Part shown: piece by piece, positions 6,399-36,626 of the stretch
Numbering within the stretch: the stretch's first letter is position 1
How the letters are laid out: every line of letters starts with the position of its first letter
IMG/VR virus record: IMGVR_UViG_3300024180_000005
Span: 1-64,000 of that record
Direction: 5' to 3' (one strand)
From: a virus
DNA: 64,000 nucleotides
Position numbers and translations under genes: made by a program
Notes under the pieces: model-generated
Databases searched by the model: none
The model's input: the letters and a program-made list of their open reading frames with translations, nothing else
What the model was told of the DNA's origin: nothing

Positions 6399-6791
6399 TT
6401 ATAGTATATTTAAAAATTTCAAATGTTGTTCTAACTTAGTATTATATTCAGAAAATGCTCCTTTTTTCAAATCTTCAAATGTTATCCATTTTACAACACC
6501 AGTTTCTTTGGTTGATATTTCACCTTCATAATCAGTTACTAAATAAACTGCAGCTACAAATTCACCATCTTCTCTTAAAAAGATTGGTATTGTGTTTTTT
6601 ATATCTAGACCGGTTTCTTCTCTTACTTCTCTTATAACACCTTCTTTCATACTTTCACCTACATCTACTTTACCACCCGGAAGTCCAAATGATGTAGAAT
6701 TATCTTTTCGAGATACTCCCAAAAGTTCTGTCTTATCTTCATTAAAGATAAGTGCAACTGCTGCTAGTTTTGCTTGTTTCGTTTCTATCAT
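6399..6791 (-). CDS. Nudix hydrolase
   Basis: A 130-residue protein with a complete Nudix box: GGKVDVGESMKEGV followed by IREVREETGLD (G-x5-E-x7-REVREE-x-GL). The frame is open to 6833, but the ATG at 6791 follows a phage-type element by exactly 4 nt and gives a normal N-terminus (MIETKQAKLAAVALIF). Known: the family hydrolyses nucleoside diphosphates linked to another group. Substrate unknown. The LOG-family gene follows 17 nt downstream. Confidence 0.88.
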   Translation of the reverse strand: MIETKQAKLAAVALIFNEDKTELLGVSRKDNSTSFGLPGGKVDVGESMKEGVIREVREETGLDIKNTIPIFLREDGEFVAAVYLVTDYEGEISTKETGVVKWITFEDLKKGAFSEYNTKLEQHLKFLNIL

Positions 6792-25388: not shown

Positions 25389-25703
25389 TTAGTAAAAAAT
25401 ATATTTTTCATCTTCTTTGATACAATAGATTGAGATTGGGTAGATTCTCAACTCATCATTACTTTCATCCACTATAAACCTCATAGAACCATCTATGATA
25501 TCTGTGTTTACAATTTTAATTGTTGCGTGATGTAATCCTTTCAGAACTGAATAGGTGATGTCGTCTAATTCTTCAGTAAGAACCATATAGTTATCCTTTC
25601 CTTGTATCTTACCGGATAATCCATCGATAAAGTAAGCCTTTTCTATAATCTCTCTAAGTGAATCTGTTGCAGAACACTCTACTTTAATTTCATGTTTTAC
25701 CAT
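25389..25703 (-). CDS. Hypothetical protein
   Basis: A 104-residue protein beginning MVKHEIKVECSATDSLRE, a small alpha/beta-looking domain with repeated short strands (HATIKIVNTDII, MRFIVDES). No family recognised. Upstream region 25704-25767 is AT-only spacer. Confidence 0.55.
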   Translation of the reverse strand: MVKHEIKVECSATDSLREIIEKAYFIDGLSGKIQGKDNYMVLTEELDDITYSVLKGLHHATIKIVNTDIIDGSMRFIVDESNDELRIYPISIYCIKEDEKYIFY

Positions 25704-25767
25704 TTCTTTTTATTTAGTTATTAAAAAATTTTATTTGAAATATTTATATTGATAAAATATATAAAGT

Positions 25768-25977
25768 TTAATTATGATAAACAATATTTATAGACGTTAT
25801 ATCTTCAATAGTAAAATTTACTATCTCTTTGAATAGTTCAAAACCTGTAAGACTCTCATAGTCATTTTGATTTTTGTTTATCTTTTTTATGATTGGGATA
25901 AGAGAATTTATCTGTTTGTGTGTAACCTCAATCTTTTCGCGACTATCTTCTGTATCTATTACTAAAAAACCTCTCAT
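25768..25977 (-). CDS. Hypothetical protein
   Basis: A 69-residue protein (MRGFLVIDTEDSREKIEVTH) with strand-helix-strand appearance. No motif. Part of a minus-strand set of small genes between terminators. Confidence 0.5.
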   Translation of the reverse strand: MRGFLVIDTEDSREKIEVTHKQINSLIPIIKKINKNQNDYESLTGFELFKEIVNFTIEDITSINIVYHN

Positions 25978-26013
25978 ATAAGTTCTTATTTTTTCTTATA
26001 TATAAGTTTTTTC

Positions 26014-26377
26014 TTACACCAATATATTTTTTATTTCTTCAGAACCATCAGGATTCGCTGAATGTATTACGTATTCTGGAAATTTAGTTTTTCTTTCATT
26101 ACAATAACTTAACAGAAACTTAACACAATCTAATCCAGTATAAACTCTTCCTTCATCGATATCAAACCATTCTTCAATAGGCAAACTTTCTTTAAGTTCT
26201 GCGACATCTGCCAAGTCATAATCGAATGCAACTAAATCAGGAACACCATTTTCTTCTATCCATTTTATGAACTGACCATAAGAACGTACAATGGAATATA
26301 CGAAAATCCGTTATTTGCCACATATATGTAGCACAATCTCTGGGAATTCGCCAATCGTCTAAAAATAACCTTTTCAT
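26014..26377 (-). pseudogene. Cyclic-phosphate processing receiver-domain gene, frameshifted
   Basis: From the ATG at 26377 the frame reads MKRLFLDDWRIPRDCATYMW, the typical start of this receiver-like family. After about 30 codons the family sequence continues in another frame: SIVRSYGQFIKWIEENGV, PDLVAFDYDLAD, TGLDCVKFLLSYCNERK, YVIHSANPDGSEEI. The switch lies between about 26285 and 26310. The paralog at 58397 is intact. A host-type box lies 4 nt before the ATG. Dead gene or sequencing error. Confidence 0.7.
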
Positions 26378-26389: not shown

Positions 26390-26398
26390 CGGACAAAT

Positions 26399-26409
26399 TT
26401 TAATATATA
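26399..26409 (+). promoter_or_regulatory. Phage-type promoter element TTTAATATATA without a following gene
   Basis: Exact element; the base where a start codon would normally sit (26414) begins AUAAUCCGAC instead. It points into the candidate small RNA. Confidence 0.5.
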
Positions 26410-26413
26410 TAGT

Positions 26414-26500
26414 ATAATCCGACTTAGGACCGGATATAGATTACGCCCCACGGGTACTATATGAAAACCACTGAATTCGCTCCTCGGTGGTTTTCTTTTT
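26414..26500 (+). ncRNA. Candidate structured small RNA
   Basis: About 87 nt between a phage-type element and a hairpin with T run. The region is visibly richer in G and C than its surroundings. Possible stems: ATCCG/CGGAT around ACTTAGGAC (26417-26435); GCCC/GGGT around CAC (about 26444-26454); and the terminator GAAAACCAC/GTGGTTTTC (26463-26495). A 13-codon ORF (MKTTEFAPRWFSF) starts at 26461 but is made of the terminator. No known RNA family recognised. Confidence 0.5.
26463..26500. terminator. Terminator of the candidate small RNA and of the endonuclease gene
   Basis: 9-bp stem GAAAACCAC/GTGGTTTTC with a 15-nt loop, T run on the plus strand; it lies just past the stop of the minus-strand endonuclease too. 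Confidence 0.7.
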
Positions 26501-28235
26501 AGAGAATAATTTCAAATTTAATCTGACCACAATCAAATATTTTATAGGCACCAAAATTATCCTCCATTATCTTTGATTCTGAAAGGTTTTTATCATATCC
26601 CATTTTTATCAATTTTGATTTTTTCCATTTTTGTTTATTTGATCTTTTTTTATCAATTAAGTATGAGTAGTTTGGATAACTAGTACTTTTAACATAAAAT
26701 CCCAATTTATAATATAAATCACCTATTGACCAAGAAACATCAGAGAAGGATATAATCCTTTTTACATCATAATTTTTAATGAAATATTTCATTAGTCTGG
26801 ATGCACCACCTATAACATTAATATTTTTTTTATTACAAAACCTTGATAAGTTCCACTCATCACTCAACATGCTTTTCCTACCCTCGAAATGATCAAATGT
26901 CATTAAACTAACCAACTCATCATCGTAATATAAACCAATTTTCTTAGAGGCTGATGTATAACCTTGTATATGATTCTCATCTAGAAATTCTCTATACTCA
27001 CTTATATCTATAACCTCTTTTATAATACATTTTCTGGCATATATTTTATTTTTAGTTAGACCTAACCAATTTGTGATTTGTGATTTTATAATATCCTTTT
27101 TAAGATTCCAATCATCTTCCCAAATATGAATTATTCTAATTTCTCTTTCTTTAAAGTATTTGGTTTTATCAAGGTGGTAGTTTTTATCTTTAAATAATTC
27201 AGAGTGCCAATAAAGACCATTAAATTCAAATCCTATTTTCAAATCAGGTAAATAAATATCTATTTCCAAACCATCCCTATAACTCTGAATTATTTCACCA
27301 TCATATATACCTTTTATATAATCTAAAATTTCAATTTCTTTAAATGATGATGTTTTATTGACCGGATAACAAATTGTACATTGTTTATTATCTAGTTTAA
27401 GTCTTGAGTGATATAAATGTGAATTTGTTTCATAATAATGATCATTTTCTACACACTTAATTAGGTGTTTACCCTTACCTAAGTATTTAAAATAGTTTTT
27501 ATCACTATTTAAATTTGTTTTTATACTAGATGATCTATATTTTTCAAAAATGAGTTCTCTATATTTTTCAGATTTAGTGAAATTATCAACACCATATTTT
27601 TCTAAATTGGTTTTCTTTATTCTTTTGATAAAATCTTCGGTTTTAGTATAACTATCAAAACCGTATTTTTTATTTGAAGTTTCTTTTATTTTATTTTTAA
27701 TAATTTCTGATTTGAATGGATTATCGACTCCGTAATTTTCAAATGTTGTTTTCACCTTTTTCTTTTTAACACTTTCAATCTTTGATATATTATCAACACC
27801 ATATTTTTCAATACATGTTTCTTTGTATTTTAAATTTATTGATTCATAATCTAAATTTTCTTTTGATTTTGATATCTTATCTTTAACAGTATCTAGAATT
27901 GACGTATTTTCAACACCATATTTTTCTAAATTATTTTTCTTATAATTATATAATTTTTTATCTTTTAAAATAGGATCATTATTTGAACAAGATTTTGAAC
28001 AATATTCTCTATAACCTCTTTTATATGATAAAAATTTAACATCACCATCACAGACTTTACAAGTAGGTTTATTATTTTTAATTAAATATACTTTCTCTGA
28101 AATTGAATCACCTGGACATTTATCTAAAAAAGAATATAAATTATTTAAGTTTTTAGATACCCATTGCTCTTTAACCGAATTTAATTCTATTTTAGATAAA
28201 TATATTTCATATTCTTTTTTAACTATTTCATTCAT
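26499..28235 (-). CDS. Homing endonuclease with KYG repeats and Vsr-like nuclease domain
   Basis: A 578-residue protein. Start MNEIVKKEYEIY at 28235 is preferred over 28253 because TTATATATA lies 4 nt upstream. Seen: zinc-binding pairs CKVC and CSKSC (about 55-85); repeated LEKYGVxN or variant modules (about 100-235) spaced by charged helices, probably DNA-binding; and a C-terminal nuclease domain with EIDIYLPDLKIGFEFNGLYW, HSE, IRIIHIWEDDW and a final FDCGQIKFE. Known: KYG repeats and EDxHD/Vsr-type nuclease domains occur in phage homing endonucleases. Its C-terminal half is nearly the same as that of the gene at 34587. Confidence 0.85.
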   Translation of the reverse strand: MNEIVKKEYEIYLSKIELNSVKEQWVSKNLNNLYSFLDKCPGDSISEKVYLIKNNKPTCKVCDGDVKFLSYKRGYREYCSKSCSNNDPILKDKKLYNYKKNNLEKYGVENTSILDTVKDKISKSKENLDYESINLKYKETCIEKYGVDNISKIESVKKKKVKTTFENYGVDNPFKSEIIKNKIKETSNKKYGFDSYTKTEDFIKRIKKTNLEKYGVDNFTKSEKYRELIFEKYRSSSIKTNLNSDKNYFKYLGKGKHLIKCVENDHYYETNSHLYHSRLKLDNKQCTICYPVNKTSSFKEIEILDYIKGIYDGEIIQSYRDGLEIDIYLPDLKIGFEFNGLYWHSELFKDKNYHLDKTKYFKEREIRIIHIWEDDWNLKKDIIKSQITNWLGLTKNKIYARKCIIKEVIDISEYREFLDENHIQGYTSASKKIGLYYDDELVSLMTFDHFEGRKSMLSDEWNLSRFCNKKNINVIGGASRLMKYFIKNYDVKRIISFSDVSWSIGDLYYKLGFYVKSTSYPNYSYLIDKKRSNKQKWKKSKLIKMGYDKNLSESKIMEDNFGAYKIFDCGQIKFEIIL

Positions 28236-28239
28236 ATTG

Positions 28240-28248
28240 TATATATAA
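28240..28248 (-). promoter_or_regulatory. Phage-type promoter element, variant TTATATATA
   Basis: One mismatch to the core, with CAAT as the 4-nt spacer to the ATG at 28235. Confidence 0.4.
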
Positions 28249-28356
28249 GCCATAACATCTCTCCTATAAAAGAAAGCCAGTATTGTTTAATATAATTTAA
28301 CATTAAAATAATAAACAAATAAGTTAAAAAAATATATATAACTTAAATAAAAATTT

Positions 28357-34586: not shown

Positions 34587-36548
34587 ATGATAATTAGTAA
34601 ACTAGTATTAGTTAAAAGTTCCAAATATTATAAAAACTTGGGATATGATATAGATGATAAGTATATAAAAGTTGATATATTACATTTACCAAAAGGATCA
34701 CATGTTATGATTTTATCAAAGTGTGATTATTGTAATAATGAGAAAGAAGTTTCATATAAAAACTATAATAGGAATATATCAATAAATGGTAAATTTTCGT
34801 GTTCTATAAAATGTGGAGTTTTAAAATCAAAGGAAACAAATTTAGAAAAATATGGTGTTGAATCAACGAATCAATTAGATTCAAAGAAATATAAATCTAA
34901 AAAGAGTCTGTTAAAAAAATATGGTGTTGATCATGTTTCAAAATTAGAATCTAGTAAAAAATCCAAAAGTATTAAAATGTTATCTAAATCTAATGAAATA
35001 TCCAATAATATTAAAAAATATTGGGAAAGCTTAGAAAGAGATGATATTGAAAGAATAAATAATAAGAGGGAATTAAGTAATATAAAGAAATATGGTTTTA
35101 AAAATGTTTCACAAGTTGAATTATTTAAAGAAAAGGTTAAGAAGACTAACTTAGAGAAATATGGTGGTTATACATATCAATCTAATATTTTGATGAGTAA
35201 GGTAATTGATACAAACTTGGAGAAATATGGTGTAACACATTCATCTAGTAATACTAAAATTAAAGAAAAGGTTAAGAAGACTAACTTAGAGAAATATGGC
35301 TTTGAATGTGTCAGTAAATCACCTATAATTAAAAAGAAGATAATTGATACAAATTTAGAGAAGTATGGCGTTGAAAACATTATGTTTTTACCAAACATTG
35401 TTAAGAATTTGAATGATAAGTTTTATAAAAAATACAAAGTAAATAGTTATTTTAAAACAGATGAATTTAAAAATAGTATAAAGTATAATCCGGTTGCAAA
35501 TGAGATTTTCAGAAAAAATCTTATAATTAACAATCATGAAAATTATATAAGTTATATTTCTAATAATATCTCTGAATTTAAATGTGATTGTGGTAATTCT
35601 CATACTTTTCAAATAAGTAGTGTTAATTTCCATAATAGAAATAATTCAAATCTACCTTTATGTACAATATGTTTCCCAATTGGTGAAAACTCATCTCTTA
35701 AAGAAATTGAATTAAGAAATTATATAAATTCAATTTATGAGGGTAAAATAATAAGTTCGTATAGAGATGGTTTAGAAATAGATATTTATTTACCTGATTT
35801 GAAAATAGGTTTTGAATTCAATGGTCTATATTGGCATTCCGAAGAGTATAAAGATAGAAACTATCACATAGATAAAACAAATTATTTTAAAAATAGAGGT
35901 ATAAGAATAATACACATCTGGGAAGATGATTGGGACAACAAAAAAGAAATAATTAAAAGTCAAATTATAAATTGGATTGGATCATCAACTAATAAAATAT
36001 ATGCAAGAAAGTGTGAGATTAGAGAAGTTGGTCAGTTAGATTATAAACTTTTTTTAGATAATAATCATATACAAGGTTTCATAAGATCAAAAATAAGAAT
36101 TGGTTTATATTATAAAGATGAATTGGTTAGTTTGATGACATTTGATAATTTAGAAGGTAGAAGAGTAATGCAAGAAGGTGGGTGGAATTTATCTAGGTTC
36201 TGTAATAAATTAAATATAAATGTAATCGGAGGGGCTTCTAAGTTATTAAAACATTTCATAAAATATTATAAACCAAATAGGATAATTAGTTATGCAGACT
36301 TAAGTTGGAGTAATGGGAAGCTTTATTATAAATTAGGATTTGAATTATCTAATATATCAAAGCCTGATTATAAGTATATAAACGAGAGTGTTCGTATAAA
36401 CAAACAAAAATTTACAAAAAGTAGGTTAAGAAAACTAGGATATAATACTTCCAGAACAGAAGATGAAATAACTAAGGAATTGGGTTTATCAAAAATATAT
36501 GGTTGTGGTCAATTAAAATTTGAACTTTTACTAGATAAATTACTATAA
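34587..36548 (+). CDS. Homing endonuclease with KYG repeats and Vsr-like nuclease domain
   Basis: A 653-residue protein. Seen: N-terminal CDYC and CSIKC metal-binding pairs; at least seven LEKYGV-type repeats (about residues 80-270) separated by charged helices; a CDCG/CTIC pair near 335-370; and a C-terminal nuclease domain (GLEIDIYLPDLKIGFEFNGL, YWHSE, IRIIHIWEDDWD, YGCGQLKFELLL). The nuclease half is nearly identical to that of the gene at 26499, while the repeat parts differ, as expected for enzymes with different DNA targets. It sits as a free-standing unit after the single-stranded DNA-binding protein gene. Confidence 0.87.
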   Translation: MIISKLVLVKSSKYYKNLGYDIDDKYIKVDILHLPKGSHVMILSKCDYCNNEKEVSYKNYNRNISINGKFSCSIKCGVLKSKETNLEKYGVESTNQLDSKKYKSKKSLLKKYGVDHVSKLESSKKSKSIKMLSKSNEISNNIKKYWESLERDDIERINNKRELSNIKKYGFKNVSQVELFKEKVKKTNLEKYGGYTYQSNILMSKVIDTNLEKYGVTHSSSNTKIKEKVKKTNLEKYGFECVSKSPIIKKKIIDTNLEKYGVENIMFLPNIVKNLNDKFYKKYKVNSYFKTDEFKNSIKYNPVANEIFRKNLIINNHENYISYISNNISEFKCDCGNSHTFQISSVNFHNRNNSNLPLCTICFPIGENSSLKEIELRNYINSIYEGKIISSYRDGLEIDIYLPDLKIGFEFNGLYWHSEEYKDRNYHIDKTNYFKNRGIRIIHIWEDDWDNKKEIIKSQIINWIGSSTNKIYARKCEIREVGQLDYKLFLDNNHIQGFIRSKIRIGLYYKDELVSLMTFDNLEGRRVMQEGGWNLSRFCNKLNINVIGGASKLLKHFIKYYKPNRIISYADLSWSNGKLYYKLGFELSNISKPDYKYINESVRINKQKFTKSRLRKLGYNTSRTEDEITKELGLSKIYGCGQLKFELLLDKLL

Positions 36549-36558
36549 TAAATAAATG

Positions 36559-36626
36559 CAGTGTTAGCATAAGTAATGCGCTATACTACCAGTATAGAGA
36601 TTCTGTTCAAATCAGAACACTTGCTC
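36559..36626 (+). tRNA. Divergent tRNA-like gene, anticodon ACC (Gly)
   Basis: Cloverleaf parts: perfect anticodon stem CTATA/TATAG around loop CTACCAG with U33 and anticodon ACC (36589-36591); T arm TTCTG/CAGAA around TTCAAAT; D arm GCAT/ATGC with only a 5-nt loop lacking the usual GG; acceptor strands GCAGTG and CACTTGC pair with one bulged T. No encoded CCA. An A at the wobble position is unusual for glycine tRNA. Real but divergent, or decayed. Confidence 0.55.

Follow-up and report, generated by a model that had tools for sequence, protein, structure and literature searches.

The stretch of DNA analysed here, called the window in the following (64,000 nt), is part of a viral record of 80 kb from an uncultured source; its nrdB is 77.5% identical to that of LR756502, a 642-kb phage genome. 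Between a broken gene and a homing endonuclease gene it carries a short intergenic element with a promoter-like box, the stems P1, P2 and P3 and two modules (A and B) that are complementary to 23S rRNA. The features are as follows, in coordinates of the window:

26014–26377, minus strand: gene starting MKRLFLDDWR (phrog_1479), frameshifted
26390–26418, plus strand: alternative sigma-70-like promoter CGGACA-17-TATAAT, from a consensus scan only
26399–26409, plus strand: promoter-like box TTTAATATATA, exact match; P1 starts about 7 nt later
26417–26435, plus strand: P1 stem ATCCG/CGGAT, arms 26417–26421/26431–26435, loop ACTTAGGAC; paired changes among members
26423–26432, plus strand: first block of module A, CTTAGGACCG, complement of 23S rRNA about 1921–1930
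26434–26462, plus strand: P2 stem ATATAG/CTATAT (26434–26439/26457–26462) around GCCC/GGGT, from the fold and letter-changed stems in relatives
26435–26449, plus strand: second block of module A, TATAGATTACGCCCC, complement with small gaps of 23S rRNA helix 69
26445–26448/26452–26455, plus strand: inner stem GCCC/GGGT
26463–26500, plus strand: P3, intrinsic terminator GAAAACCACTGA / TCGGTGGTTTTC with loop ATTCGCTCC, then TTTTT; covariation
26475–26483, plus strand: module B, the terminator loop, family core TCGCTA(C), complement of 23S rRNA 1932–1938
26499–28253, minus strand: homing endonuclease (phrog_3339; DUF7487), between the RNA and nrdB; absent at this place in the relatives L009 and L016
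28357–29322, plus strand: nrdB, ribonucleotide reductase small chain (Pfam PF00268, E 1.7e-116)

The element and its surroundings

The position between a broken gene and a homing endonuclease agrees with the original prediction, as the MKRLFLDDWR gene shows an identical frameshift in L001/L006 and an intact open reading frame of 132–133 aa in L007 and L008, and the phrog_3339 gene lies on the other side. All genes from 25389 to 26377 and also the endonuclease gene are located on the minus strand, and therefore a promoter and a terminator on the plus strand would serve the RNA alone. As the element directly precedes nrdB in L009 and L016, the endonuclease has been inserted between the two in the window. 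A second endonuclease gene (34588–36548, plus strand), which over 600 nt shares about 74% identity with the first one, ends 9 nt before tRNA-Gly (36558–36624, plus strand); both endonuclease genes end beside an RNA gene. The idea of a degenerate tRNA, which came from this second endonuclease, was rejected as it had no support from ARAGORN or Rfam; besides tRNA-Gly, ARAGORN detected no tRNA or tmRNA in the window.

With one mismatch tolerated, the box TTTAATATATA has 36 matches in the window compared with 21.3 ± 5.3 expected. At most sites with an exact copy an ATG follows 1–4 nt downstream (sites near an ATG are found for example at 2180, 11181, 24429, 32348, 34572, 52214, 54801 and 61567), so that the box looks like that of near-leaderless phage genes and, if it is a promoter, would lead to leaderless or near-leaderless mRNAs. 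At 26399, as had been predicted, no ATG is placed in this way and the RNA follows instead. An identical or near-identical box is also present with similar spacing upstream of the element in L003, L007, L008, L009, L015, L016, L064 and L113. Matches to the sigma-70-like consensus are not more frequent than in shuffles.

The sequence following the box is indeed GC-rich (46.7% at 26420–26479 compared with about 17–42% in adjacent 60-nt windows). Both stems that had been proposed from the letters, ATCCG/CGGAT and GCCC/GGGT, could be located (26417–26435 and 26445–26455), as could the final terminator, which is a hairpin of 12 bp (26463–26474/26484–26495) with TTTTT directly after it. The fold energy has a z-score of −3.45 and none of 200 dinucleotide shuffles was equally stable, the terminator contributing largely to this stability. 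A 13-codon open reading frame within the terminator (ATG at 26461) was rejected, as the relatives have no ATG there.

A family of RNAs in large phages

Relatives were gathered by searching the adjacent exonuclease protein, and not the element, against viral contigs, and in most exonuclease relatives whose contig spans that place the element follows the same 104-aa gene. Using a search pattern of two invariant blocks, TTAGGACCNG ... AATTCGCTNCT, we obtained at least 119 stretches of uncultured viral contigs. The same pattern gave 11 matches in genomes of bacteria and archaea (257 Gb), most of them within genes and only one of them (L146, a contig of a Bacteroidetes MAG) with the full terminator stem. 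With a slightly looser pattern the element was found in all of the 44 records tested, which are up to 642 kb long, as a single copy in 43 of them and as two copies in one, and the reversed pattern gave zero matches in these 44 records. The two copies in the latter record (L075) are located at 6740 and 7525 (minus strand), about 780 nt apart, and the first one follows a 542-aa gene equal in size to the nrdA gene preceding the element in L022. A closely similar second pattern had no match in Lak-B1, pT24, NCTC12673, Larrie and LR756500, which are relatives by nrdB or endonuclease. LR756504 has no match to this second pattern either, yet a variant copy was found there with the first one, and therefore absence of a pattern does not prove true absence of the element. 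Viral records are mostly fragments, in which presence and absence are not cleanly scorable.

No family of Rfam 15 matched the window, where also at a relaxed E-value no hit was above the gathering threshold of any family, and only tRNAs were found in 11 relatives. ARAGORN and Rfam hence give no tRNA or riboswitch-type match on the element, as had been stated from the sequence. A BLAST search with four different forms of the element gave no usable match to an isolate phage, and no earlier description of the RNA was found in the literature (open PMC text). There is hardly any doubt that the element, whose sequence forms include that of the window and the TTAGGACCCGTTATAGTTA form, represents a real RNA family of big phages, which is so far without a name.

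In 77 distinct terminator stems (P3) all four Watson–Crick types occur at pairs 1–8, and in the 46 stems with a T-run pairs 5–7 are Watson–Crick without exception. The inner wobbles of the terminator stems are G-U in 16 cases and A-C in none, which together with the compensatory stems argues for selection on an RNA read from the plus strand. RNAalifold with 23 members showed two-sided changes in 8 of 11 terminator pairs; with the mixed MAFFT alignment it recovered the terminator stem alone, and P1 and P2 were assessed by direct reading plus a simple script. P1 is found as ATCCG/CGGAT, ACCGG/CCGGT, AACGG/CCGTT, TACGG/CCGTA and AACCG/CGGTT among the members, and letter-changed P2 stems in relatives are for example TTAG/CTAA and TATAG/CTATA. 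Most relatives of the window's group possess an extra small hairpin within P1, again in several variants (GGAC/GTCC, GGGC/GCCC, GAGAC/GTCTC, GGAAC/GTTCC and more). The original prediction had named lacking conservation of the stems in related phages as evidence against it; the stems are conserved, and compensatory changes, which it had proposed to look for, are present in P1 and P3, pointing to selection for RNA structure on the strand that is read. Amid these changing stems, the unpaired blocks are nearly invariant, namely (C)TTAGGACC-G-(T)ATAGTTA and the TTCGCTAC of the terminator loop. With the box conserved in close relatives of the window, a conserved body and terminator, a single copy and an intergenic position, comparison supports the predicted stand-alone small RNA, which would be about 87 nt long (26414–26500) and have its own phage promoter and terminator.

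Complementarity to 23S rRNA

Near position 1921 the 23S rRNA of E. coli has the reverse complement GGAATTTCGCTACCTTAGGACCGTTATAGTTACGGCC, and the element blocks (C)TTAGGACC-G-(T)ATAGTTA and AATTCGCTAC are both complementary to one 27-nt stretch of this rRNA, E. coli 1911–1937 in helices 69–71. When the 8-mers found in 108 members were placed on the 16S, 23S and 5S rRNAs, one strong contiguous antisense peak resulted at exactly this conserved target, common to up to 107 of the 108. The order of the blocks is permuted relative to 23S rRNA, with the H69 part coming first and the part for 1932–1938 lying in the terminator loop, and modules A and B together span about 1903–1938. In the window about 24 bp are possible with 23S rRNA about 1903–1930, and module B reads TTCGCTCC, in which C replaces A and creates one mismatch to 23S rRNA, likewise in several relatives. 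We also calculated net pairing energies including self-structure for 35 non-redundant members and 291 windows of 23S and 16S rRNA. The H69–H71 site ranked first for 23 of the 35 members and within the top five for 32, and with module B and its stem alone the site was in the top five for 14 members and not singled out.

The rRNA match was noticed only after the pattern had been built from alignments of the phages; the member set was nevertheless selected by this pattern. In the 18 nt beyond the first block, which were not selected, the longest run shared with the following part of the antisense strand is 5.7 compared with 3.7 in shuffles, and T(A)TAGTTA(C) is enriched in other members. Members found with TTAGGACCNGTTATAGTT alone still have TCGCTA in the terminator hairpin, matches to TTAGGACCNGTTATAGTT without TCGCTA look like chance and are located inside genes, and in one group with TATCGCTACCTAG the 23S match is extended on the opposite side. 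Scans for single-letter departures gave 24, 6 and 5 stretches, mostly chance matches, compared with at least 119 for the pattern. A true block substitution is present in three structured members (L217, L245 and L248), where a change from C to T keeps a G-U pair with the rRNA, a support that is weakened as C to T is the commonest mutation anyway; L240 and L241 have an A where the longer form has its extra base. Two shuffled words come to lie within 30 nt of each other on rRNA in about one of 10,000 cases. As these individually modest tests combine with the third block, a coincidental match to 23S rRNA is unlikely, and the function of the RNA is probably pairing with rRNA. The 50-nt target is identical in E. 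coli and a flavobacterial genome, and because the natural target hardly varies, co-variation between RNA and target gives no test.

Several points count against the antisense reading, namely the module order that is permuted compared with a simple antisense RNA, the loop mismatch in the window along with the lacking specificity of module B alone, the folding of part of the target in mature ribosomes and a sense match of 9 nt to the sarcin-ricin region (23S 2662–2670), which is the only strong sense match. A sarcin-ricin mimic was rejected, as this match is lost in TTAGGACCCG forms and leaves module B unexplained. An rRNA decoy on the opposite strand was ruled out by the direction of the terminator and the wobble pattern. 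The original prediction of a regulatory or decoy RNA is therefore retained in its first part, with which an antisense RNA fits, and not for an rRNA decoy, as the loops on the transcribed strand are the complement of 23S rRNA and not a copy of it. A dispersed terminator repeat was ruled out by the single copy per genome.

Long forms of the element (L021, L031, L032, L081, L137 and similar T4-like loci) have an extra hairpin with the loop GGCTNCT, which is GGCTGCT in 23 of the 31 distinct long-form loops and resembles the antisense strand of the 530 loop in 16S rRNA; these forms also share the conserved tail AAGTGAGC. Complementarity to the 16S 530 loop (GGCTGCT) and to 16S 1497–1504 (CTTGTTAC) may serve as a lead; both candidates occur in 20–28 related members only and their letters are variable.

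A possible antisense RNA against the ribosome and its alternatives

On balance we lean towards a stand-alone phage RNA that would act in trans by base-pairing with H69–H71 of the host's 23S rRNA. Module A (TTAGGACCG plus TATAGTTAC) would supply a toehold loop and then the complement of H69, and module B (TTCGCTAC, the terminator loop) the complement of the bases beside it in 23S rRNA. The TTAGGA loop could initiate pairing with UCCUAA of 23S rRNA, P1 would then open and the second block would pair on through H69, and the terminator loop could pair with the neighbouring GUAGCGA. In the mature 50S subunit H69 is exposed at the subunit interface and 1926–1938 are folded. This folding and the flexibility of H69 and H71 in precursors would make an immature or recycling 50S subunit the likeliest target. 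Pre-50S particles in which H68 is undocked have a flexible H69 and H71, and flexibility of H68 blocks 30S joining (PMC11260487). The RNA might capture 50S precursors or free or recycling 50S subunits with undocked H68–H71, with the outcome that 50S maturation or 30S joining would be blocked. An inhibitory effect on ribosomes is possible, at slightly less than even chances. The same holds for the proposal as a whole, a tentative one, according to which a family of natural antisense RNAs encoded by phages and directed against H69–H71 would inhibit ribosome assembly or subunit joining for the host takeover by large phages.

A different reading is that of a conserved 3'-end element, in which the loops would be bound by a protein of phage or host or would make transcript ends more stable, the 23S match being incidental. 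Many members are indeed located 6–40 nt downstream of a same-strand stop codon, most end in a terminator hairpin, and the conserved hairpin loop GGCTNCT of the T4-like forms is not accounted for by 23S rRNA. We regard this as rather unlikely, since there is a single copy per genome and not many, the element of the window's group has its own promoter box and no plus-strand gene preceding it, and three conserved blocks match within the same 27 nt of rRNA, against the rate given above for two shuffled words. The complementarity would be the same if an RNA on H69–H70 protected ribosomes from a host anti-phage nuclease cutting there, and nucleases cutting H69 do exist (Ribocin is reported to cleave eukaryotic ribosomes at H69; PMC13189344). 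Such a shield appears improbable, as a duplex covering H69 should by itself impair translation and no such nuclease system was seen near the element.

For a cis-acting leader of nrdB (attenuator or riboswitch) speaks the position of element and terminator directly before nrdB in L009, L016, L064 and others, as well as that of the element directly after nrdA in L022 and L074; from these lineages, its ancestral position was perhaps between nrdA and nrdB. This explanation is very improbable, as the position upstream of one kind of gene is not constant: in many lineages the element adjoins unrelated genes (ferritin-like, radical SAM, unknown proteins), and a convergent endonuclease gene comes next to it in the window, L010 and L113. 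These endonuclease genes, an HNH-type gene adjoining the element in L003 and the 27-nt target itself, which is the known I-CeuI site of 23S genes, would fit with a DNA site for a homing endonuclease that the phage carries as relic or lure. We find this barely conceivable, as the parts are split, permuted and 20–50 nt apart, the stems covary, the wobbles fit one strand only and most members have no endonuclease alongside.

Compared with known systems, the antisense RNA proposed here would be most similar to trans-acting base-pairing sRNAs of bacteria and phages, which are also short, structured, stand-alone or derived from 3'-UTRs and have an intrinsic terminator and conserved unpaired seeds; it differs from them in being complementary to 23S rRNA and not to an mRNA and in using the terminator loop as a pairing region. 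The same 23S region is targeted by a synthetic PNA directed against helix 69, which is reported to inhibit growth of E. coli (Kulik et al. 2017, cited in PMC7038079), but this oligomer is man-made and short, whereas the phage RNA is a natural structured gene with two separated pairing blocks. H/ACA and C/D guide RNAs of archaea and eukaryotes also possess short blocks complementary to conserved rRNA including functional centres, but in the phage RNA the block order is permuted and the phages, whose hosts we infer, are thought to infect bacteria; H/ACA or C/D boxes were not recognised in the phage RNA by eye and the Rfam scan had no match as well. Huge phages are known for translation takeover genes (bS21, IF1/IF3, tRNAs, tmRNA; PMC7162821 and PMC9723584), which agree in the kind of phage and the presumed aim, and text searches of these two papers gave no mention of a comparable RNA. 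In the literature (open PMC text) we found no natural RNA from bacteria or phages that is directed against the functional core of 23S rRNA.

Such an RNA may serve the phage by halting host translation, by releasing ribosomal resources or by shielding H69–H70 from a host nuclease. E. coli has an identical target, so that the idea is directly testable in laboratory strains. The novelty would lie in the kind of target, the molecule itself being a small base-pairing RNA. If true, this would be a new RNA-based control of host ribosomes, exerted by a single-copy RNA that numerous lineages of large uncultured phages have retained.
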